In this document: piece by piece, positions 1-9,830 of the stretch
How the letters are laid out: every line of letters starts with the position of its first letter
How positions within the stretch are numbered: position 1 is the stretch's first letter
Program-made: the position numbers and the translations under genes
DNA from: Flavobacteriales bacterium
Lineage (GTDB): Bacteria; Bacteroidota; Bacteroidia; Flavobacteriales_F; PHOS-HE28
Reading direction: 5' to 3'
DNA: 64,000 nt
Assembly: GCA_023382455.1 (NCBI GenBank)
Contig: JAHDVX010000003.1
Span: forward strand, 1 to 64,000
The notes under the pieces: model-generated
Database searches by the model: none
The model's input: only the letters and a program-made list of their open reading frames with translations
What the model was told of the DNA's origin: nothing

Positions 1-997
1 GGGGCGGCTGCGGTGGTGGTGGTGCCGGTGCTGCCATGGCCCCGACCTCGGCGGCTGGCTGCTCGCTCAACAGCAGGTCGGCAATGTCCATCCCGGCCAG
101 CATGTTCTCCATGGTCGCCCCGGCTTCCAGCAGGTCGCTCACATGGATGGATGCGAACAGGTGCCGCGTCTCCTCAGCCACCGCCCGCCACTTGTAGTAG
201 GCCGTGCTTTCCGCGTCGCTCAGATCAGGGAAGGCCAGCACCTTCCGGCCCGTCAAGGCTTGGAGCTTGGCCAGCTTGAACTCTCCCAGCGACCCGGTGG
301 CCAGCCATAGGTAGTTGGGCACCAAGGCGGCGGCGATCATGGCCGTTTTCTCGCTCTCCACCACGGCCACGGTAGCATCCATCGGCCAGCCCCCCAGCAG
401 GTGTTCCCCGAACAGGCACTGTTCCAGCTTCCGGCCTTGCGGGATGCCGCCTTGCAGGCTATGCACCCACGTGGTGCCGCCATCCTTGCTCCGGTGCCCG
501 GTGTCCGGATCATACAGCATGACCTTGCCGCCCTTCACCTTGCCATGAACGTCCACCTGCCAGTAGACCGCAGCCCCGGCCATGCGTCCATCGGGCCACG
601 TGCCCATCGCGTAGTCACGGGCCACCTTGTTCCAGCGGTCCGATCCGATCAGGTTCCGCCAGTATGCGCTCAGGGTGTTCCGCTCAGGGTGGGCGCGTAG
701 GGCTTTCACCACGTCGCGATCATGCAGGAAGGGGACGGGCGGCGGCGGCTCAGGCTTCGGGGTGTAGGCGGTGCCGTTGTCGGGCTTCAGGCCGTTGTCC
801 CGGAAGTAGTCGCGGGGCGGGTAGTGATAGCCGCAGCGGTCCGCCCGGTTGCACTTCCCCACATGGTCGGGCAGCACCTCCCCGGTGGTGGTGTCCACGT
901 ACTTGGTGAACTCCTTTCGGTGTCCGCAGCCGGGGCAGGTGTGCCGGGTTGACGGTCCCCGGTACGGCTCCAGGGTGAAGCGTTGGGGGGCGCTCAT
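1..997 (-). CDS. DUF6371 domain protein with zinc ribbon and Toprim-like region (partial)
   Basis: The reading frame begins at the ATG complementary to 995-997 and is open to the left edge, giving at least 332 residues, so the C terminus is missing. An N-terminal zinc ribbon is visible (CPGCGH, then CNRADRCGYHYPP about 30 residues later). It is followed by a DUF6371-type region containing VVESEKTAMIAAA and KVLAFPDLSD, which resemble the acidic motifs of Toprim/primase domains. The last visible residues are proline-rich (PAPPPPQPP). Zinc ribbon plus Toprim-like fold suggests a DNA-primase-like role in element replication, which is inference. It is the downstream partner of the DUF3987 gene, separated by a 228-nt repeat-bearing gap. 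Confidence 0.75.
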   Translation of the reverse strand, partial: MSAPQRFTLEPYRGPSTRHTCPGCGHRKEFTKYVDTTTGEVLPDHVGKCNRADRCGYHYPPRDYFRDNGLKPDNGTAYTPKPEPPPPVPFLHDRDVVKALRAHPERNTLSAYWRNLIGSDRWNKVARDYAMGTWPDGRMAGAAVYWQVDVHGKVKGGKVMLYDPDTGHRSKDGGTTWVHSLQGGIPQGRKLEQCLFGEHLLGGWPMDATVAVVESEKTAMIAAALVPNYLWLATGSLGEFKLAKLQALTGRKVLAFPDLSDAESTAYYKWRAVAEETRHLFASIHVSDLLEAGATMENMLAGMDIADLLLSEQPAAEVGAMAAPAPPPPQPP

Positions 998-1021
998 GTT
1001 TTGGAGGGATATTCCCCCGTG

Positions 1022-1158
1022 TCACTTTTGGCACTTTGGCACTTTGCTACGGGGACGCGGGTTGCAGCGCGTTTTCGGGTGGCACAAACTTTGGCACTTT
1101 GGCACTTTGTCCCCATGGGCGGGCAGGGTTTGTGCCACGTTGTGCCAGCAAAGTGCCA
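1022..1158. repeat. Cluster of CTTTGGCAC / GTGCCAAAG-like motifs
   Basis: Between the DUF3987 and DUF6371 genes the motif TTGGCACTTTGGCACTTTG occurs twice (about 1029-1047 and 1091-1109). Inverted or partial copies (TGTGCCACGTTGTGCCAG, AAAGTGCCAG) follow to about 1158. Single copies recur at 3037-3045 before the HTH gene and at 5561-5570 before the integrase gene. The arrangement resembles iterons or regulator-binding sites belonging to the element. Function is not established from sequence alone. Confidence 0.6.
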
Positions 1159-1225
1159 GCCCTTTTTGGGCCTCAAACCCGCGTCAATGCTGGAAAGTGT
1201 CAAAAAGGACAGTTGTGCCATGGGG

Positions 1226-2668
1226 TTAATGCTCGAATTGCTTCCGGTACCGCCCTTGGCCGTCCTTCGCAAGGAGGGGTTGGCGGCCCTTGCTCCACTC
1301 GTTCAGCCGCCGTTTCATGGTCCGTGCGGACAGCCCCATGCCGTCCGCTCTCACGATCGCCTCAGCCGTGGTGAACTCACCGGGCAGGGCATCGTACAGG
1401 CCCAGCTTGTCGCCTGCCAAACGGTCCAATGGGGAGGCTTGGAACATATTGAAGTGCATCTTCCGCGCCGTGCGCTCGAAGTAGTCCAGCAGCTTTTGGG
1501 CACCCTCCACGGCTTCGGTGCGCACCTCTCCACCTGCTTGTTGACCGTCGCAGGCACGGTGCAGCAGTTCCAGCACAAGGGCCAGCCGGTGGTGGTATGT
1601 GTCCAGCTTGCCAAGGAGCGCGGCGGTCAGTTCGTCCCCGGCTTCGATCGCGGCGTTCTTCCGGTCCGTGTGCCTCCGGTCCCATGCGGCGTACATGGCC
1701 GCAGCCTGTTCCGTGTACCGCAGCACTACGGGTTGGGGATCGCCGCCGTTGAGGTCCATTTCCAGCCCCAGCAGGTAGTCCACCACCTGCTTCCACCATT
1801 GGATCCACTCTGCCGGTAGCTCCGTGGTGGTGGCGTATTCCGCGCGTTGCACGTCCGGCCACAACACCAGCAAGCGGTGGAGAAAGCCATCGTCGGCACC
1901 GGCAAGCGCTGCCAGCTTCCCGGTTTGGATCCCGCCTGCCAAGGCAACGAATGGGCGCGGCACCAAATGTTCACCGGCGGTCTTTCGGATCTCAGTGATG
2001 GGTTGGCCGTTGAAGATCGACAGCCACTTGGGGCGGTCCCCTCCGCTGCGGTATGCGTCCATGCTTTGGAGGAAGCCCAGGAACTCATCGTTGTGCCGTC
2101 CAAGCCCGCGCGGTGTTGCCGACAACTTCGCGATCAATGCCTCCATGGTAACATCCCCGACAACGTGCGGCCTCCATACCGGGCGCGGTGCGGGTGGCTC
2201 TTGAGTAGGTGCGTTCTTGTCCCGCTTCTTGCCTTTGCGCTCTTCTTGCGCGGTCTCCCATTCCCTCACCTTGTGATCGTGTTCGGACTTGGTGTGGCGG
2301 TCGTGATCGGTCAGGGGCCGGGTCAGCAGGTCCACCGGGGGGCTTTTGCCCACGGACGGGGCACCAACGGCCAGCAGCCACAGTGCGGCGGATGCCGTGT
2401 AGGGGCCGCAGCATAGGGCGGTGCTATTGCCGATCGCGGTGGAGGCGGTGAACAGCAGCCCGGCGGCGGAATAGTCCACGGGGAACCGGGCTTTTTGCCG
2501 TAGGACTTCCAGCAAGTCGGCAATGGGCTTGGGGAAGGCCTCCACGGGGAACGGCCCGGCCTTGGGCCGATCGTCTTCCGCAGGCTTGGGTTCAAGGTGC
2601 AGGGCTTCGGCCTCAATGTCCGTGATCAGGTCGGCGTTCACGGACACGGGTAGTGCTATCTTTGGCAT
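1226..2668 (-). CDS. DUF3987 domain-containing protein (primase/helicase-like)
   Basis: 480 residues starting MPKIALPVS. The frame is open further upstream to 2938, but that extension would run through the HTH gene at 2712-3017, so the ATG at 2668 is chosen. A P-loop-like GAPSVGKSPPVD lies in the first third, followed by the DUF3987 pattern: a charged lysine-rich insertion, then VVGDVTMEALIAKL, a GRHNDEFLGFLQSMDAY block and FVALAGGIQ. DUF3987 proteins accompany phage and integrative-element replication modules. A replicative helicase or primase-associated ATPase role is inferred from family and context. It lies 43 nt downstream of the HTH gene and upstream of the DUF6371 gene, probably in one operon. 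Confidence 0.8.
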   Translation of the reverse strand: MPKIALPVSVNADLITDIEAEALHLEPKPAEDDRPKAGPFPVEAFPKPIADLLEVLRQKARFPVDYSAAGLLFTASTAIGNSTALCCGPYTASAALWLLAVGAPSVGKSPPVDLLTRPLTDHDRHTKSEHDHKVREWETAQEERKGKKRDKNAPTQEPPAPRPVWRPHVVGDVTMEALIAKLSATPRGLGRHNDEFLGFLQSMDAYRSGGDRPKWLSIFNGQPITEIRKTAGEHLVPRPFVALAGGIQTGKLAALAGADDGFLHRLLVLWPDVQRAEYATTTELPAEWIQWWKQVVDYLLGLEMDLNGGDPQPVVLRYTEQAAAMYAAWDRRHTDRKNAAIEAGDELTAALLGKLDTYHHRLALVLELLHRACDGQQAGGEVRTEAVEGAQKLLDYFERTARKMHFNMFQASPLDRLAGDKLGLYDALPGEFTTAEAIVRADGMGLSARTMKRRLNEWSKGRQPLLAKDGQGRYRKQFEH

Positions 2669-2711
2669 GTCCAAGAATTTTTGAGCGGGTATGCGGTGAT
2701 GCGCTGCCCGC

Positions 2712-3017
2712 TCACTTGTTTCCGGCCATGCGTTCCTCTGCGATCTCGGAGGCCATGGGTCGGCGCCCCCCGTCGATCCAAGCATCCAAAAGATCCAAGT
2801 CAAAGAACAAGCGCCCACCAACCTTACTGTGCGGCACTTCCCGGCGATGCGTTTTCTTGTACATCGTCCGGTTAGCCAATCCGCAGTATTTGGCAGCTTC
2901 CGAAAGTCCGACCCGGCGTTTCCGATCGGGTTTCTCATTCGTGCGGCTTTTCAATGCTCGCACATCCACGGCCAAGGCATCCAGCTTGGCAGTGATCTCT
3001 TCAAAAGGGTTGTTCAT
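2712..3017 (-). CDS. Helix-turn-helix (MerR/excisionase-like) DNA-binding protein
   Basis: 101 residues. After an N-terminal stretch with a probable coiled coil (ITAKLDALAVDVRALKS), a winged-HTH of the excisionase type is visible: LSEAAKYCGLANRTMYKK, then HSKVGGRLFFDLDLLDAWI. Such proteins in Bacteroidota elements act as recombination directionality factors or transcriptional regulators of the element. Which of the two applies here cannot be told from sequence. It starts the leftward replication operon. The 102-nt region upstream carries one GTGCCAAAG motif and a CGTTTGCGGA repeat array that are plausible binding sites. Confidence 0.8.
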   Translation of the reverse strand: MNNPFEEITAKLDALAVDVRALKSRTNEKPDRKRRVGLSEAAKYCGLANRTMYKKTHRREVPHSKVGGRLFFDLDLLDAWIDGGRRPMASEIAEERMAGNK

Positions 3018-3075
3018 CTTGCGCTTGCCGTGGCGTTAGTGCCAAAGCGGGCGCAAGTAGAAAAGTCGATAGTGC

Positions 3076-3112
3076 CGTTTGCGGACGTTTGCGGACGTAC
3101 TGGCCGCAAACG
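3076..3112. promoter_or_regulatory. Operator-like repeat: two direct plus one inverted copy of CGTTTGCGG
   Basis: CGTTTGCGGA occurs in tandem at 3076-3085 and 3086-3095, and its inverse CCGCAAACG follows at 3104-3112. The array lies between the HTH gene and the unknown 359-aa gene, both transcribed leftward, so it sits upstream of the HTH gene. The spacing suits binding of a dimeric regulator or a directionality factor. This is a visual call with no experimental support. Confidence 0.45.
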
Positions 3113-3119
3113 GGTGGAT

Positions 3120-4199
3120 TTAGTCTACTTCAAGATCCTCCTTGTATTCCGTTACAAGGTCGCTGAAACCCTTGTTTGAGCGCACCTTGTCCAAGCGGTC
3201 AAGCCCTGTAAGTTCGATATGATCCTTCAAAGCCTGCACCAGTTCCTTATCGGTTGCATACCCATCCAGTTGGAACAACTCCTGTGCTGCGGTCCACGCC
3301 GCGATCAACTTGCCCTTGCCCTTCGCGTTCGCTGCCATCGCAAACCTGCCCTCGGCATCCACAAGCCCCTTGGCCCTCAACAGGCCCATCCACTTTTCCA
3401 GCGACCCCGGCACCTTGGCGAACTTCTCTGCAATGGATGGGGGCTTGGGCCGGGCCTTCGCGGGCTTGGGCTTGGTGGTTGTGGTGGTTGCAACAACAGC
3501 ACCCACACGCTCCACCAAGCGGACCCTCCATGTGTTGAAGCCTTCGATATGCCTTTGGAACATGGCCGCAATATCTCCGGGTGCGGCGTACTGGCCCCTA
3601 TTCGACAGGTCTTGCCTTGCCCGTTCCAGCCGCGCCTCGTATGCCGTGCGCTCGGCGTTGCCGATGGATAGATGGGCAATGCCGGAAGCCAAACGCCCGA
3701 CCTCCTTCGCGGCTTGTTCGCCTTGGCCATGTGCGACAAACGCGGCCCGGACTTCCTCAGCAAAGCCTTCGGCCCAACGCTCCCACCGTTGCGTCAAAGG
3801 GCCGGACTTCGCGCCGAGGTTCGTCAATGTCAACCCGTAATGCGGTGATCCACCAGCGTGGTACCACTGGCCGGAAAGTTCACGGCGTTGGTTGCCCAAG
3901 GCACTCATGTAGTCATTCAATTCCGGGCGATAGCCTTGCAGCCTGCGATACTGTTTCCGGCGATACTCTTCGACCTCAGCGGCGCTATCAATGAGGAACG
4001 AAAGAAGGCAGTAATGGGCTTCGTGTTTCAGTTGCTCGAAGGCACCCGCAACGGTCCGGCCTTGCCAAATGGTTGAAGCAGGAGGGAGTACTTGGGGTAA
4101 CGGAGGCAATCCCATGTCGCCGCGTATGTCATTCACAAGGCCGCGCATTGCCTCGGCAGCATCCTTCATTTTGCCCTTCCTTGGTTGTTTCGCCATCAT
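3120..4199 (-). CDS. Hypothetical protein of the integrative element (359 aa)
   Basis: No family recognised. The protein starts MMAKQPRKGKMKD, a basic N terminus without a signal peptide or membrane segment. A helical, charged central region follows (residues about 60-230), then a low-complexity linker of TTTTT and KPKPAKARPKPP near 245-260. A C-terminal domain (about 265-359, KWMGLLRAKGLVDAEGRFA) looks like a compact helical or winged-helix fold. The two-domain layout with a Pro/Lys linker would suit a DNA-binding accessory or regulatory protein, which is inference. It lies between the recombinase and the excisionase-like gene on the same strand, a position often occupied by element-specific regulators. 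Confidence 0.7.
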   Translation of the reverse strand: MMAKQPRKGKMKDAAEAMRGLVNDIRGDMGLPPLPQVLPPASTIWQGRTVAGAFEQLKHEAHYCLLSFLIDSAAEVEEYRRKQYRRLQGYRPELNDYMSALGNQRRELSGQWYHAGGSPHYGLTLTNLGAKSGPLTQRWERWAEGFAEEVRAAFVAHGQGEQAAKEVGRLASGIAHLSIGNAERTAYEARLERARQDLSNRGQYAAPGDIAAMFQRHIEGFNTWRVRLVERVGAVVATTTTTKPKPAKARPKPPSIAEKFAKVPGSLEKWMGLLRAKGLVDAEGRFAMAANAKGKGKLIAAWTAAQELFQLDGYATDKELVQALKDHIELTGLDRLDKVRSNKGFSDLVTEYKEDLEVD

Positions 4200-4269
4200 T
4201 CAAAGCCCTTGGTTTGCCGCGTCCAGTTACTCGTTGCTGAAGCTCTTCAGGTAGGCATGGCCCATGCGC

Positions 4270-5532
4270 TTACAGCAGTTGATCCGCAACATCCAGCACG
4301 TTGTTCCCGAACCGCTTCAGGTAGGCGGCGGTGGTGTTCACGCTCTCATGCCCCATGCTCTCCGAAATGATCGCCACGTCCACGCCCCTCCGCTTCAGGG
4401 TGGTGGCGTAGGTGTGCCGGGCCACGTAGAAGGTGAGGGAACCTTTGATGCCAAGTGCCTTGGCCACGGCCTTCAGGTCGCGGTTCACGTGTTGGAGCCG
4501 GTCCTTGATGCGCATCCATACCTCGGCCTCCGTGCCCTCGTTCCCTTTCAGCACCGGGAACAGGTAGCGGCTCTCCCGGTCGTTGAAGTAGTCCATGATC
4601 TCCTGCATGGGGGCACTTACCGGAATGCTGAAGTTGGCCCCCTCTCCCTTGCGCTTGGTCTTGGTGCGGGTGTATTCCAAGCGTCCATTGATGACGGAGC
4701 CGTGGGTGAGGCGGGCGATGTCCGCGAAGTTGATGCCCCGTGCATAATAGCTGAAGAGGAACAGCCGGACGGTGCAGCCCAGCAGGGGGTGTTCATCGAA
4801 TGGAAAGGCTTTGAGGCGTTCAATGTCCCCATCCTCCAAAGCGCGTGGCCGGGTGGTGGCCTTCAGCCGCTTCATGGAGTAGCCTTTGTGCCGGGCCGTT
4901 TCAAAGGGGTATTGCTCCTGTGCCAGCAGGCCGTCCTTGATCGCTTGGTTCACCGCAACGCGGATTATCCGGTAGTAGGTGGCTATGCCTCCGGGGGTGC
5001 AGCCCTCACGACGAAGGAAGGCTTCCACCTCTTCCAGCTTCCGGGGTGTCAGGTCGTGGAAGGGCAGGGGCTTGCCCGCATTGGCCCGGCGTAGTGCGCT
5101 CACCGCGTTGCGGAACATGATCGCATAGCCGGGGCGGTCCTTGCGTAGTTCCTGCTCCGTGGCCTCCATGTAGGCCAGCACGTCCGACGTGGCCTTGGGG
5201 TTGCGGTACATTTTCCCGAAGGCTTCCAGCGACAGGGAATTGTTCACCACCAGCGCGTCAACGATCCCGCACACGCGGGCCTCAATACCGTTGACGATCC
5301 CGTTGATTAAGGTGCCACCGCGCACACGTGCCTTCACGCGGGCTTGGGCCTCATCCCATTGCTCCGGCTTCACGGCCTCTTTGAGGGAGTACCGCTTCAC
5401 CTTGCGGCGGTGGGACAGCTGCAGGCATATCGGTGCCATGCCGTTCTTCATTCGCTGGCTTGTCAGCAGGATGAAGCGGGCGTTGAAGCCATCTTCCTTG
5501 GCCCGCTTGTTCAGGGGTATGTTTTCGCCCAT
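4270..5532 (-). CDS. Tyrosine recombinase / site-specific integrase
   Basis: 420 residues from MGENIPLNKR. An in-frame alternative begins 13 codons upstream at 5571, but a TACGTTTG promoter-like motif ends 7 nt before the chosen ATG. The N-terminal arm-binding domain (about 15-100) and SAM-like core-binding domain (about 115-205) precede the catalytic domain. Catalytic residues visible are Arg265 (YARGINFAD), Arg372 in FYVARHTYAT, His395 (MGHES) and nucleophile Tyr404 (TAAYLKRF). The usual box II His before the second Arg is Tyr369 here, a variant I have seen in Bacteroidota integrases. It probably integrates the element into the tRNA-Thr gene whose 3' fragment lies about 150 bp away. Confidence 0.92.
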   Translation of the reverse strand: MGENIPLNKRAKEDGFNARFILLTSQRMKNGMAPICLQLSHRRKVKRYSLKEAVKPEQWDEAQARVKARVRGGTLINGIVNGIEARVCGIVDALVVNNSLSLEAFGKMYRNPKATSDVLAYMEATEQELRKDRPGYAIMFRNAVSALRRANAGKPLPFHDLTPRKLEEVEAFLRREGCTPGGIATYYRIIRVAVNQAIKDGLLAQEQYPFETARHKGYSMKRLKATTRPRALEDGDIERLKAFPFDEHPLLGCTVRLFLFSYYARGINFADIARLTHGSVINGRLEYTRTKTKRKGEGANFSIPVSAPMQEIMDYFNDRESRYLFPVLKGNEGTEAEVWMRIKDRLQHVNRDLKAVAKALGIKGSLTFYVARHTYATTLKRRGVDVAIISESMGHESVNTTAAYLKRFGNNVLDVADQLL

Positions 5533-5539
5533 CTTGGGG

Positions 5540-5547
5540 CAAACGTA
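5540..5547 (-). promoter_or_regulatory. TACGTTTG -7-like element before the integrase gene
   Basis: Read on the minus strand, TACGTTTG matches the Bacteroidota -7 consensus TAnnTTTG and lies 7 nt before the integrase ATG at 5532. A second near copy (TTTACGTTTTG) lies immediately upstream. If used, the transcript would have a very short leader or none. A clear -33 TTTG partner is not obvious. Confidence 0.45.
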
Positions 5548-5678
5548 AACAAAACGTAAACACTTTGGCAAGATGGAGGAAAAAGGGGGCTAACCGGTTT
5601 CTCCTTGCTGGGCCTATGTTTGCCGCGTCAAGCAAAGGAAAAGGCTACTTTTGGAAACCCCGGAAAAGGCCCAAATAA

Positions 5679-5724
5679 CTCATTCGTAATGAGCAGGTCG
5701 TCAGTTCAAATCTGACAGGAGGCT
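5679..5724 (+). other. 3' fragment of tRNA-Thr(CGU): probable attachment site (att)
   Basis: The segment folds as the 3' part of a tRNA: anticodon loop TTCGTAA with anticodon CGT and stem CTCA/TGAG, variable AGGTC, T arm GTCAG-TTCAAAT-CTGAC, and acceptor strand AGGAGGC plus one base. No 5' acceptor strand or D arm precedes it, and 5678 breaks the first anticodon-stem pair. It is therefore a duplicated 3' end left by integration, with crossover near the anticodon stem. The intact gene is predicted outside the window on the left. Confidence 0.72.
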
Positions 5725-5737
5725 CACCTACAGCCGC

Positions 5738-5765
5738 AAGCCCTCCAGCGCAAGTTGGGGGGCTT
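5738..5765 (+). terminator. Hairpin after the tRNA-Thr fragment
   Basis: AAGCCCTCC (5738-5746) pairs with GGGGGGCTT (5757-5765) with one G-T pair and a 10-nt loop, followed by TGTGTTTG. It lies 13 nt past the tRNA fragment and is plausibly the chromosomal terminator of the original tRNA-Thr gene. The rest of 5533-5883 shows no gene. Confidence 0.5.
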
Positions 5766-5883
5766 TGTGTTTGGGGGCGGGGTAAATAGGGGGGCAAGTT
5801 TTCGGCCGCTTGGGGCGTTCCCGGTGTATCGCTGGAAAGCCTTGCCTGCCTTGCCCCCTGATAACGAACCACCATTCCCCTCT

Positions 5884-6720
5884 TCACCAAGCTGCGCGCA
5901 GCAAGCCCAGCAACTGGTCCTCGGCAATGGGATGGCGCTCGGCTTCCGCGGTGGTTTCCACCCTGGCGGCCTCCGCTTGCCCTTCGGCCTTGGCCATCCT
6001 TTCCGCCCCGGCGGCGGCGGTAGCGCGTACGGATGCGGGCGGCGGTGCGGGATGGTCCTTAGCCTCGGCCAGGGCAAGATCGGTCACCGGCGCGGCCGTG
6101 GTATCTACTCCACCGAGGTCGGCCTGGGCCGGTGAAACCTGCTGGTCAAAGGCTTGATCCATGTCGGTTGCCACCTGCATGGCGGATTCTTCCAGCAAGC
6201 CCGTGGCGGCGGCCGTCTCCTGTGGCGGCTGCACCTCCGCAGCCTTGGATTCCACCTCTGCCGGCCGCAGTTCGGGCGAGGCCGATGGCACCTTCGGCTG
6301 CAGCAGCTCGGCCAGCACCTTGTTCTCCTGCGGCTGCATGGCCTTCCATAAGGTGACGGACGTGATGCTGAGCAGGGCCAAGGCCCCCAGGGCCAGCGCC
6401 GGCCGCCAAAAGTGCACAGGCCGCGCAGGCACCAGAAAGCCCCCCACGCTGTTCAGCCAGATGCGCCATTGCGGTTGCCGGTGGTCACGGAAAGCCGCCA
6501 GCACGCGTTCACGCACGACCGGGCCGGCCTCCAAGGGCTCTGGCTGCCCGCTTTCCGCCTGCATGTGCAGCAGCAGGGCGCGCATGCGTTGGTATTCGGC
6601 GGCATCCTGCAGGTGGTGCAGCACAAAGGCCTTCTCCTCCGCCAACAGCTCCTCGAAGGGTCGCTCCAGCATCAGGTGCTCGATGTCCTCGGGGTCGTAT
6701 CGTTCCGGACGTTCCATCAT
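5884..6720 (-). CDS. Membrane-anchored anti-sigma-factor-like protein
   Basis: 278 residues. The ATG at 6720 overlaps the sigma-factor stop (TGATG), indicating translational coupling. The N-terminal 90 residues are acidic and helical (DPEDIEHLMLERPFEELL, EEKAFVLHHL) and resemble the sigma-binding part of anti-sigma factors, but no zinc-binding HxxxCxxC motif is visible. One transmembrane helix follows (about 128-146, ALALGALALLSITSVTLW). The remaining region is Ala/Glu/Pro-rich, low-complexity and probably periplasmic. The position directly after an ECF sigma gene supports a regulatory role. The family is inferred from context plus topology. Confidence 0.65.
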   Translation of the reverse strand: MMERPERYDPEDIEHLMLERPFEELLAEEKAFVLHHLQDAAEYQRMRALLLHMQAESGQPEPLEAGPVVRERVLAAFRDHRQPQWRIWLNSVGGFLVPARPVHFWRPALALGALALLSITSVTLWKAMQPQENKVLAELLQPKVPSASPELRPAEVESKAAEVQPPQETAAATGLLEESAMQVATDMDQAFDQQVSPAQADLGGVDTTAAPVTDLALAEAKDHPAPPPASVRATAAAGAERMAKAEGQAEAARVETTAEAERHPIAEDQLLGLLRAAW

Positions 6721-7334
6721 CAAGGTCTTCGTCCCGTTGCCGGGGTGGTATGTTCAGGTTGCGGATTGAACTCGGGCAAGGCCGCGGCCAGTTTGCGCAC
6801 GGTGTAGAACAGGCGGCTCTTCACGGTCCCCTCGGAGATGCCGAACACGGCGGCGATCTCCTTGATGGCCATGTCCTCCTGGTAGCGCATCACGAAAGCG
6901 GCCTTCTGGTCGGGGTCCAGCTTGTTCAATTCCTCCTCCAGCCGCGCGGTAAAGTGGTCGCGGTCCACACGGGTACCGCCCTCGGGCTCGGCCACGCCGT
7001 TATGGGCGGCTTTCAGGTGGGGCAGGGCGGCGGTGCGGGTGGCCATTCGCCGGTATTCGTTCTTGCACATGTTGTTGGCCACGCTGTAGAGCCAGGTGCC
7101 GAAAGGCCTGCCGGGCTGGTAGCTCTCAGGCCGCTGTGCCAGCTTGGTGAAGAGCTCCTGCAGGAAGTCCTGAGCCCGTTCGCTGTCCTGCCAGAGCATG
7201 CGCCGGAAGTAGGAGAGGAGCTTGCGCTGCCAGCGGTCGTAGAGCACGGCGAAGGCACGCTCCTGGCCGCGTGCCACCAGCTCCATCAGGCGCTCGTCGC
7301 TGAGGTCCACGGGGTCGGTTCGGAAAAGGCCCAT
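6720..7334 (-). CDS. RNA polymerase ECF sigma factor (sigma-70 family)
   Basis: 204 residues with sigma region 2 (about 25-95: FAVLYDRWQRKLLSYFRR, then QDFLQELFTKL and FGTWLYSVANNMCKNEYRR) and region 4 (about 130-185: EELNKLDPDQKAAFVMRY, IKEIAAVFGISEGTVKSRLF). Length and domain layout are typical for Bacteroidota ECF factors. It starts 8 nt after the stop of the 368-aa secreted protein gene and is coupled to the anti-sigma-like gene downstream. The three therefore look like one leftward operon, with the sigma factor probably held at the membrane by its partner. Confidence 0.93.
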   Translation of the reverse strand: MGLFRTDPVDLSDERLMELVARGQERAFAVLYDRWQRKLLSYFRRMLWQDSERAQDFLQELFTKLAQRPESYQPGRPFGTWLYSVANNMCKNEYRRMATRTAALPHLKAAHNGVAEPEGGTRVDRDHFTARLEEELNKLDPDQKAAFVMRYQEDMAIKEIAAVFGISEGTVKSRLFYTVRKLAAALPEFNPQPEHTTPATGRRP

Positions 7335-7342
7335 GGTGTTGC

Positions 7343-8449
7343 TCAGTGTTGCAGGATGCCCATCTGCCGCAGTTCGGCCGTGGCGCCGGTGGCGGCGGCG
7401 ATGCGGCGCAGGTCGGCCTCCACGCGCGCAGCGCCCCGCTCATCGCCGGCTTGGCGCAGCCGCCCCAGCAGCACGGCGCCGGGCAGCAGGTAGTTGCGGC
7501 TCATCGGCCCGGCATCCGCGGTCTTTCGCATGGCCTTCCAGTTTCGGGCCAGCAGGTCAACATCGTCCGGTGAGGCTGCGCCCACGCGGAAAGCGGCACC
7601 GACGACATGCAGCTGGCCGGGGAAGGCCTCCAGCCAATCGCGGTCCAGGCTGAGGGCGAAGTACACCGGGCGGGCCGTGGCTTGCAGCAGGGCTATTGCA
7701 AAGGCTGGTCCGGCTGAGGGGGGCGGCGTGCCCCGCGCCTCGGCCTCTCGCCATACGCGTGCCCTGTAGACGGGGTCGGCCAGCAGTCGCCGGTCCACCA
7801 CCAGCACGCCGGGCCTGGTGGTTCCCAGCACCTGGTCCATCACCACGGGCTGGGTGTCCATGTCGCCGTTGGTGAACAGCACCGCTTGGGCCGGCAAGGA
7901 ACGCAGCACATCCTGCGCCACGGAAGCCAGGGCGGGGGCCACTTGACCGCGTTGCCGTAATGCGGTACACCATTGGAGCAAGGCCGCGTCATCGCCCGTG
8001 CGCATGGCCCGGGTGACCATCGGGGCGATCAGCTCCGGGCGGCCGGGCGCCATGCGATGGGCGGCCTCCAGTTCGGCAAAGGCACCGGGTGCGGGGAAAT
8101 CCAGGAAGTAGCGGGCCATGTGCCGTTCAAATCCGTCGGGGGCGGAACCCGCGATGCGCCCGGCAATGGCCTCCAGTTCCTGCTTGTCCGCCGGAAGCAG
8201 GTCGCCGTTGTGGGCGCTGCGGCGGGCATCCAGTTCCGTGCGGAACCAGTTCCACAGCAAGGCAGCATTGGCCGGGGCCTCGTTGCTCGCCTCGCGCCAC
8301 TGCCCAGCGCGGGTGGCGTTGGCCCTGGCGTCCCAAGCCCCCTGCATGTTCGTGGCCGGGGCGTGATCGGAGGGCTGGTCGAGTGTCTGGGCGTGCACCC
8401 CCGGTTGCAGGCAGGCCGCCAGGAACAAGGGGAGGATGAAGCGGGGCAT
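7343..8449 (-). CDS. Secreted protein of unknown function upstream of an ECF sigma factor
   Basis: 368 residues with an N-terminal signal sequence (MPRFILPLFLAACLQPGVHAQ). The LAAC within it could alternatively be a lipobox. The body is helical with TPR-like spacing in the first half (AFAELEAAHRMAPGRPELI). A central stretch, AQAVLFTNGDMDTQPVVMDQ, resembles the LFTNGDNDT motif in the C-terminal part of Bacteroidota DUF2723-type proteins. No catalytic motif is recognised. It is first in the operon with the sigma and anti-sigma genes, so it may be an envelope component monitored by them, which is inference. Confidence 0.72.
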   Translation of the reverse strand: MPRFILPLFLAACLQPGVHAQTLDQPSDHAPATNMQGAWDARANATRAGQWREASNEAPANAALLWNWFRTELDARRSAHNGDLLPADKQELEAIAGRIAGSAPDGFERHMARYFLDFPAPGAFAELEAAHRMAPGRPELIAPMVTRAMRTGDDAALLQWCTALRQRGQVAPALASVAQDVLRSLPAQAVLFTNGDMDTQPVVMDQVLGTTRPGVLVVDRRLLADPVYRARVWREAEARGTPPPSAGPAFAIALLQATARPVYFALSLDRDWLEAFPGQLHVVGAAFRVGAASPDDVDLLARNWKAMRKTADAGPMSRNYLLPGAVLLGRLRQAGDERGAARVEADLRRIAAATGATAELRQMGILQH

Positions 8450-8517
8450 GGGCTGTTATTCGGGAGGCCGTACACGCAAGTTGGGCCAAAGTTCGATCCC
8501 GGCGAAATTCCCGGTCC

Positions 8518-8525
8518 TACCTTTG
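8518..8525 (+). promoter_or_regulatory. TACCTTTG -7-like element, 4 nt before the DUF493 gene
   Basis: TACCTTTG matches TAnnTTTG and is separated from the ATG at 8530 by only CGCA. The initiating nucleotide would then fall at or next to the start codon, implying a leaderless or near-leaderless message. Confidence 0.5.
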
Positions 8526-8529
8526 CGCA

Positions 8530-8805
8530 ATGCCGGAGGAGGACGCCCGCGAACGCATGAGGAAGGCCCTGAACGAGGTGCACAATTGGCCGTCCGTGTA
8601 CATGTTCAAGTTCATCTTCGAGCCGGACCAGCACCGCTTGGACCGGTTGCTGGGGCTGTTCCCGCCGGAGGCGGAAGTGCTGCGCAAGTACAGCAAGGGC
8701 GGCAAATACCTGAGCTTGACGGTGCGCGAAGTGATGATGAGCGCGGATGAAGTGATGAACCGCTATGAGCAGGCCGCCGCCGTGGAGGGCGTGATCGTGC
8801 TGTGA
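8530..8805 (+). CDS. DUF493 family protein (YbeD-like)
   Basis: 91 residues. The fold signature of DUF493/UPF0250 is visible: WPSVYMFKFIFEPDQHRLDRL, then VLRKYSKGGKYLSLTVREVMMSADEVM and IVL at the end, giving an ACT-like small alpha/beta domain. The family is thought to be regulatory, but its molecular role is not settled. The ATG at 8530 is supported by the promoter-like motif just before it. It leads a three-gene rightward unit (next gene 6 nt away, third gene overlapping by 4 nt). Confidence 0.85.
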   Translation: MPEEDARERMRKALNEVHNWPSVYMFKFIFEPDQHRLDRLLGLFPPEAEVLRKYSKGGKYLSLTVREVMMSADEVMNRYEQAAAVEGVIVL

Positions 8806-8811
8806 GGATCG

Positions 8812-9189
8812 ATGGTCGAGACCGTACGCACCACCCTGCTCATCACCTTGTCCATCCTGGTGCTGATACTGCTGTACCGGCGTTTCCGACAATACTTGCG
8901 GCTGCACCACTTGCCGGTCCCGCAACATGTGGAGCTGCGTGCGGTGGAGGTGATGTACCACCCGCTGCAACTGCGGGTGCACCTGCACCTGCCCCGGCCG
9001 GAAGAGGTGGCCCCGGCGATGCTGTCCACGGCCCACGCGCACCTGCACGCATGGCCCACCGTGCGCTTGGAGCGCGGTGAGCATGTGCTGGAACTCCCCT
9101 TGGATGAAGGCCTGGACGGCGCGTATTATGTGGAGGTCGGCACGTCCACACAGCGTACGGAGCGGCGGTTCATCATTCGCCAAGCATGA
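8812..9189 (+). CDS. Small membrane-anchored hypothetical protein
   Basis: 125 residues with one N-terminal transmembrane helix (about 7-22, TLLITLSILVLILLY) followed by RRFRQYLR, which predicts an anchored protein. The downstream domain of about 95 residues looks beta-rich (VELRAVEVMYHPLQLRVHLHLP, GAYYVEVGTSTQ) and may be immunoglobulin-like. No family recognised. Its stop overlaps the next start (ATGA), so the two are probably co-translated. Confidence 0.7.
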   Translation: MVETVRTTLLITLSILVLILLYRRFRQYLRLHHLPVPQHVELRAVEVMYHPLQLRVHLHLPRPEEVAPAMLSTAHAHLHAWPTVRLERGEHVLELPLDEGLDGAYYVEVGTSTQRTERRFIIRQA

Positions 9190-9830
9190 AGGGCCTCCGG
9201 TTCATCGCCGCCCTGGTCGCCCTGCTGCCATTGGCCGCAGCCGCCCAACGCCTGCCGGCGGCACAGCCCACCTTGCAAGGCTTCTTCAACCTGCCGCTGG
9301 CCCTGGGCAACCCGGTGTTCGATAACCTGACGGACGTGCTCGGGCAGGGCGACCTGGCCTTCACCTTGCCCGTGTACAAAGGTCTGGGCGTGGGTGTGGG
9401 CGTTGCGGGCACATGGTATGAGCTGAATGAGGACGGCCTGGCCCCTGAACTGACCATCGGGAGCGTGCAGCGCTATGTGCCCTACGGCAAGCTGGAATGG
9501 ACGCGGTACACGGGCCAGCACACCTATCTGGCTGTTGGTGCCCGTGCCGGTGGGGCCTATTGGGATTGGCAATGCGGAACCTGCCGGGAAAGCCTGCGGC
9601 AATCGGGCCTGCACTGGGGCGTGGAGGCGAGGTACTTCCTGCATGCCTCGGACAATTTGGCCTTCGGGCTGCTGCTGGGCTACCAGGCCGATGCCTTGCG
9701 GTTCGGCCCCGACGTGGTGGGCCTGGACGGCTTCCCGGGCCGGACCGATACCGGCGCTCCCTACCGTTTCCTCTCCGTGGGCCTAGGCTTCAGCACCGGT
9801 TTCCGGCCGTCACCCGAAAGCCACTGGTAG
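9186..9830 (+). CDS. Outer-membrane beta-barrel-like hypothetical protein
   Basis: 214 residues with a signal peptide (MKGLRFIAALVALLPLAAAAQ). The mature part alternates aromatic and small residues as in outer-membrane barrels (VGVGVAGTWYELNEDG, YLAVGARAGGAYWDW, LAFGLLLGYQADALRF, FLSVGLGFSTGF). A CGTC pair occurs near residue 135 and could form a disulphide. No specific family recognised. It is the last gene of the unit, followed by a strong hairpin. Confidence 0.72.
   Translation: MKGLRFIAALVALLPLAAAAQRLPAAQPTLQGFFNLPLALGNPVFDNLTDVLGQGDLAFTLPVYKGLGVGVGVAGTWYELNEDGLAPELTIGSVQRYVPYGKLEWTRYTGQHTYLAVGARAGGAYWDWQCGTCRESLRQSGLHWGVEARYFLHASDNLAFGLLLGYQADALRFGPDVVGLDGFPGRTDTGAPYRFLSVGLGFSTGFRPSPESHW

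Follow-up and report, generated by a model that had tools for sequence, protein, structure and literature searches.

The window is a stretch of 64,000 nucleotides at the start of contig C3 (219,657 bp) in a genome of 51 contigs (G000). Its left end holds a block of leftward genes that runs from the contig edge to a partial tRNA gene (Table 1). The integrase is 98% identical to its counterpart in genome G017 and 97% identical to that in G005, and the DUF6371 gene product is 89% identical to that of G017. The HTH_17 protein scores 35.3 bits with PF12728, against a cut-off of 27. The product of the gene at 3120-4199 had no Pfam, PHROG or PADLOC match, and its relatives are 91-99% identical over 244-248 residues. 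Allowing at most one mismatch, we counted 5 matches to TTTGGCACTTTG in the 64 kb against 0.21 +/- 0.48 expected, and we regard 1027-1220 as a putative replication origin. Just outside the integrase and the tRNA piece there is a putative terminator-like hairpin at about 5735-5775, seen by eye. The defence or resistance genes that an earlier note on this DNA had named as frequent cargo of such elements did not turn up: no relaxase, structural or resistance genes were recognized in the element with Pfam, PHROG and PADLOC, and PADLOC found no defence genes, its sole weak match being mad1 (E 0.006) on the HTH protein.

Table 1. Features at the left end of the window, in order of position.
Feature	Position	Strand	Evidence or remark
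Element DNA inside the window, ~5.7 of ~6.4 kb (estimate)	1..5678	.	Reaches the contig edge on the left; window base 1 is the first base of C3
DUF6371 and Zn-ribbon gene (primase-like), truncated at its C-terminus where the contig stops	2..997	-	PF19898 2.5e-44, PF21957 2.7e-27
Iteron-like direct and inverted repeats, TTTGGCACTTTG x4 and inverted copies	1027..1220	.	4 exact copies
DUF3987 helicase/primase-type gene	1226..2938, likely start 2668	-	PF13148 7.6e-48; phrog_2373 DNA helicase 6.9e-24
HTH_17 protein, AlpA/excisionase type	2712..3017	-	PF12728 1.4e-8; phrog_66 excisionase 3.8e-7
Uncharacterized gene beside the integrase	3120..4199	-	Same position as the PICMI iolg/icg gene
Tyrosine integrase	4270..5571, likely start ATG 5532	-	Phage_integrase (PF00589) 3.4e-13, Phage_int_SAM_5, Arm-DNA-bind_5
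Arm-type repeat pair CGTAAAC, 11-bp spacing	5544..5561	+	Matching pair at the opposite end on C4
attR, 47-nt copy of the tRNA-Thr(CGT) 3' part	5679..5725	+	Identical to L002:1501-1547
Chromosomal right flank: gene without a name, ECF-type sigma-70 gene, third gene	5884..8449	-	Adjoins tRNA-Thr in relatives

The evidence supports the tRNA piece as the attR of a tyrosine-recombinase element that targets a tRNA gene, with the intact tRNA and its 3' copy lying on two contigs. The intact 73-nt tRNA-Thr(CGT) is at G000:C4:198309-198381 and its 3' part matches attR exactly; in the genome-wide search the 47-nt copy matched tRNA-Thr with E 7e-22, which excludes a chance match. Identity to L002 is lost at the first base beyond each edge of the copy. 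The earlier note had read about 46 nt of the tRNA-Thr 3' end at 5679-5724, so the fragment stands and the figure is corrected to 47 nt. The leftward tyrosine recombinase proposed beside it is supported by Pfam, and the intact tRNA-Thr with an identical 3' end predicted for that side was found at the end of C4 (198,660 bp), which stops 279 bp past it; the window starts at base 1 of C3. No complete tRNA was found inside the 64-kb window. The comparison with relatives lacking the element, which had been proposed as a check, gave uninterrupted sites in two genomes: in G003 the tRNA-Thr is followed directly by the genes of the window's right flank, and in G028 a GNAT gene, the tRNA-Thr and the right-flank genes lie within one 3-kb locus. 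CGTAAAC pairs with 11-bp spacing occur at both ends of the window element and of a related element in G012. The integrase of the G012 element (C5), which has these same arm-repeat pairs, is 54% identical, and on G012:C14 (L047 1467-1682) an open end of 71 residues that faces tRNA-Thr looks, by eye, like the C-terminus of DUF5681.

C4 closes with coding sequence for the C-terminal 23 residues of a DUF5681 protein. The corresponding left end in G005, which is 90% identical, runs from tRNA-Thr through DUF5681 to the DUF6371 gene, and another contig of that genome carries the 97%-identical integrase and an attR. When C4 and C3 are aligned to G005 and G017, an estimated ~0.43 kb is left unassembled, and we infer from this homology an element of ~6.4 kb, with only ~0.75 kb of it beyond the window. 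Its gene order is integrase, uncharacterized gene, HTH_17, DUF3987 helicase, iteron-like repeats, DUF6371 primase, DUF5681, tRNA. The earlier note had placed the rest of the element, with a relaxase and cargo, to the left of the window; what lies there is the DUF5681 gene, and a relaxase was not found among the element genes. A large cargo-bearing ICE to the left was likewise considered and ruled out by the size of the missing part. The first 55 bases of C39, a contig with a second element of the same genome, are also those of C3. The unassembled stretch is therefore probably a part that the two elements have in common, and the shared 55 bases probably broke both contigs.

Other features of these assemblies were observed along the way. 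The intact tRNA of G005 (L065 13033-13106) and its attR copy (L055 ~3078-3125) have the same T-arm variant, with one mismatch between them, and this variant is absent from G000 despite the 97%-identical integrases. We considered G017:C101 (L061 7064-13753) as a clean template for the whole element and rejected it: its left end is at a tRNA-Val(CAC) without a CGTAAAC pair and its right end is a tRNA-Thr attR, so that either the contig is chimeric or two satellites have recombined.

Related elements occur in Bacteroidia at Asp, Glu, Lys and other tRNAs. DUF5681 of the kind found in the window element is present in 4 of 45 genomes of the genus. Scanning genome contigs for DUF5681 gave eight loci. 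In seven of them a tRNA lies 109-331 bp from DUF5681, which faces its 3' end (three tRNA-Glu, two tRNA-Asp, one tRNA-Val and one tRNA-Thr); the eighth, L103, is a prophage without a tRNA-facing DUF5681. The replication part varies among loci, being DUF6371 with DUF3987, BT4734-like_N with DUF3987 (L097), BT4734-like_N with D5_N/DUF5906 (C39), or a 430-aa gene without a family match; DUF5906 is present in C39 and L135. Two relatives are complete in single contigs. L097 is 7.05 kb long with a 23-bp tRNA-Asp repeat at 96%. L144 is 5.5 kb long with a 58-bp tRNA-Lys repeat at 97%, and its genes are an integrase, an uncharacterized gene, an HTH_17-like gene (below the curated cut-off), a 318-aa gene, a DUF5681 homologue for which Pfam's own DUF5681 model fails to reach E 0.01, and a Terminase_4 small subunit.

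G000 has two elements and G017 at least three. The second element of G000, at L007 (C39) 1-6465, has another primase type and a right end with a 22-nt tRNA 3' piece, for which no intact partner was found in its own genome. L097 and C39 are both beside mnmA and their integrases are 98.8% identical. Their replication proteins (L097 6859-9000 and L007 547-2721) share the first 258 residues (83%) and then continue into different helicase types, an alignment pattern that indicates a module exchange inside a gene.

A class-wide search found DUF5681 in 16 of 395 genomes, at 19 places. We examined the 18 places outside the genus, two of which are phage or prophage (L141, L143). At 6 of the 16 others (L129, L131, L132, L137, L140 and L144) DUF5681 faces a tRNA no more than 2 kb away, where 0.2 to 0.4 such places were expected, with a chance of 1e-8 to 1e-6 as a simple binomial bound. 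A Pfam-supported tyrosine integrase lies on the far side in 5 of the 16 (L132, L133, L135, L140 and L144), and the order DUF6371, DUF5681 is repeated in L135. DUF5681 genes appeared solitary at the other half of the places (8/16: L130, L134, L136, L138, L139, L142, L145 and L146), a weak negative because the integrase test behind this call was BLAST to one integrase only, which missed L140 and L144. The solitary genes of L138, L145 and L146 are near-identical and lie on three contigs of one genome (G359), with no tRNA found at these loci. Att repeats were sought in L129, L131, L132, L137, L140 and L100 and were not found.

DUF5681 is named in a single paper of the literature we searched, and its predicted structure (pLDDT 55.8) was too poor for a fold search. 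In some phages its neighbors suggest a link to DNA packaging. In IMG/VR, DUF5681 is beside the large terminase gene in all six loci found, three of which are one phage lineage; in MW202710 and L141 it also adjoins TerL, giving six phage lineages in all. It is not beside TerL in FelixO1 or in a Sphingobacterium prophage, and in Barba31A two genes lie between them. Altogether 405 phage records match DUF5681, mostly of Felix or Barba kinds, with the context viewed in three. The L144 product matching Terminase_4, the phage terminase small subunit (TerS), does so with E 5e-14; a class-wide search with it matched G281 itself and one more of the 395 genomes, and a PDB search gave nothing useful. Since both genes are in L144, DUF5681 may assist in packaging and not be TerS itself.

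Given this layout, in which the integrase and DUF5681 occupy opposite ends and DUF5681 faces the intact tRNA, we believe that the locus is probably a ~6.4-kb integrated minimal mobile element in the 3' part of tRNA-Thr(CGT) that would replicate and be packaged in phage particles, in other words a phage satellite. The tyrosine integrase recombines the 47-nt core, for which the core itself, the paired arm-type repeats and the empty sites are observed. The HTH_17 protein would turn on excision, and replication of the circle would start in the iteron region and use the DUF6371 primase and the DUF3987 helicase. The DUF5681 protein would then mark the element DNA for the terminase of a helper phage, and the element would be packaged in phage particles and carried by phage to new cells. 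IMG/VR scans with the integrase, a second integrase, the 430-aa gene and the DUF3987 gene gave no satellite contig, the three weak matches being short integrase pieces, and no Terminase_3 prophage was found in the element's own genome.

The packaging of the window element is putative, and the same genes could also belong to an integrative mobilizable element without its own relaxase, moved in trans by a conjugative element via an unseen oriT. The human-gut mobilizable element L095 (MT836643) shares with it the DUF6371, DUF3987, HTH and tyrosine integrase gene types and also encodes a relaxase (PF03432) and NikA, so the replication and integration module is common to such elements. However, the window element has neither of these two genes and carries DUF5681, and relaxase and conjugation genes were not found among the window genes or in L097 and L144, the two complete relatives. 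A terminase small subunit is encoded in L144, and DUF5681 homologues are neighbors of TerL in six phage lineages. We therefore consider mobilization in trans unlikely. It is more doubtful still that the locus has lost its mobility and is what remains of an ICE or prophage. Its small size and lack of structural or conjugation genes would fit this, and real decay is seen in G026, where on contig C19 (L046 ~8275-9742) a tRNA-Thr and a fragment lie 1.3 kb apart with only an N-terminal integrase piece between them, an arrangement that marks it as a decayed element at the same tRNA-Thr site. In the window, by contrast, all five genes are open (the contig edge truncates one), other Bacteroidia show the same layout, and the integrases are 97-98% identical in two other genomes. 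Empty and occupied junctions also coexist in the G017 assembly, where C125 starts with 127 bases that also end both C78 (intact tRNA) and C101 (integrase end). To read the tRNA fragment as a tandem tRNA in decay or as an artefact of the assembly, and not as an att site, is hardly credible and already contradicted: C3 and C4 have no physical join in the assembly, but the 47-nt identity has abrupt edges on both sides, paired arm repeats lie at both ends, G003 and G028 have empty sites, and the same element is at the same tRNA in G005.

If the phage satellite reading is right, it gives DUF5681 a testable function and would account for some small unassigned tRNA islands. Our confidence is evenly balanced on the broader proposal, in which a widespread family of 5-7 kb Bacteroidia phage satellites is integrated at tRNAs, with the integrase at one end, a DUF5681 packaging gene facing the intact tRNA and interchangeable replication modules, and in which DUF5681 is a terminase-directing family. 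The literature matches listed, which are not exhaustive, include no description of a satellite family of this kind in Bacteroidota.

Among the closest known systems, the Bacteroides NBU-type elements are mobilizable elements. P4-like satellites have an integrase in a tRNA, an AlpA-type regulator and a primase-helicase, as does the window element, although no P4-specific gene was named in it by the Pfam and PHROG searches. Gram-negative PICIs, as presented in PMC6092414, are alike in having the integrase at one end, an AlpA-type regulator, a primase or rep gene with an ori and sometimes terS. Compared with them, the window element is shorter and has different integrase and replication genes and no recognized interference genes.

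The window element most probably works like a PICMI, judged by its gene content. The PICMI model genes are an integrase (PF00589), AlpA (PF05930 or PF12728), a primase (DUF3987/DUF5906) and fis. Three of the four, the integrase, AlpA and primase, are found in the window element, but its integration site is tRNA-Thr instead of fis, and for this reason we do not call it a PICMI. By comparison with PMC10803314, both are about 6 kb with an integrase, an uncharacterized gene beside it, an HTH_17/AlpA gene, a replication gene (DUF3987 in the window element, DUF5906 in its relatives) and no capsid genes. PICMI are at fis in Vibrionaceae and have no identifiable packaging gene, whereas the elements described here are at tRNAs in Bacteroidota and carry DUF5681, with TerS in one relative. 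The same source describes complete PICMI only in Vibrio and no second copy per genome, in contrast to the several elements per genome noted above. Complete minimal satellites of this gene set have been reported only from Vibrio (PMC10803314); if our reading is right, the same minimal plan exists in Bacteroidota, at tRNAs and with a terminase-linked gene.
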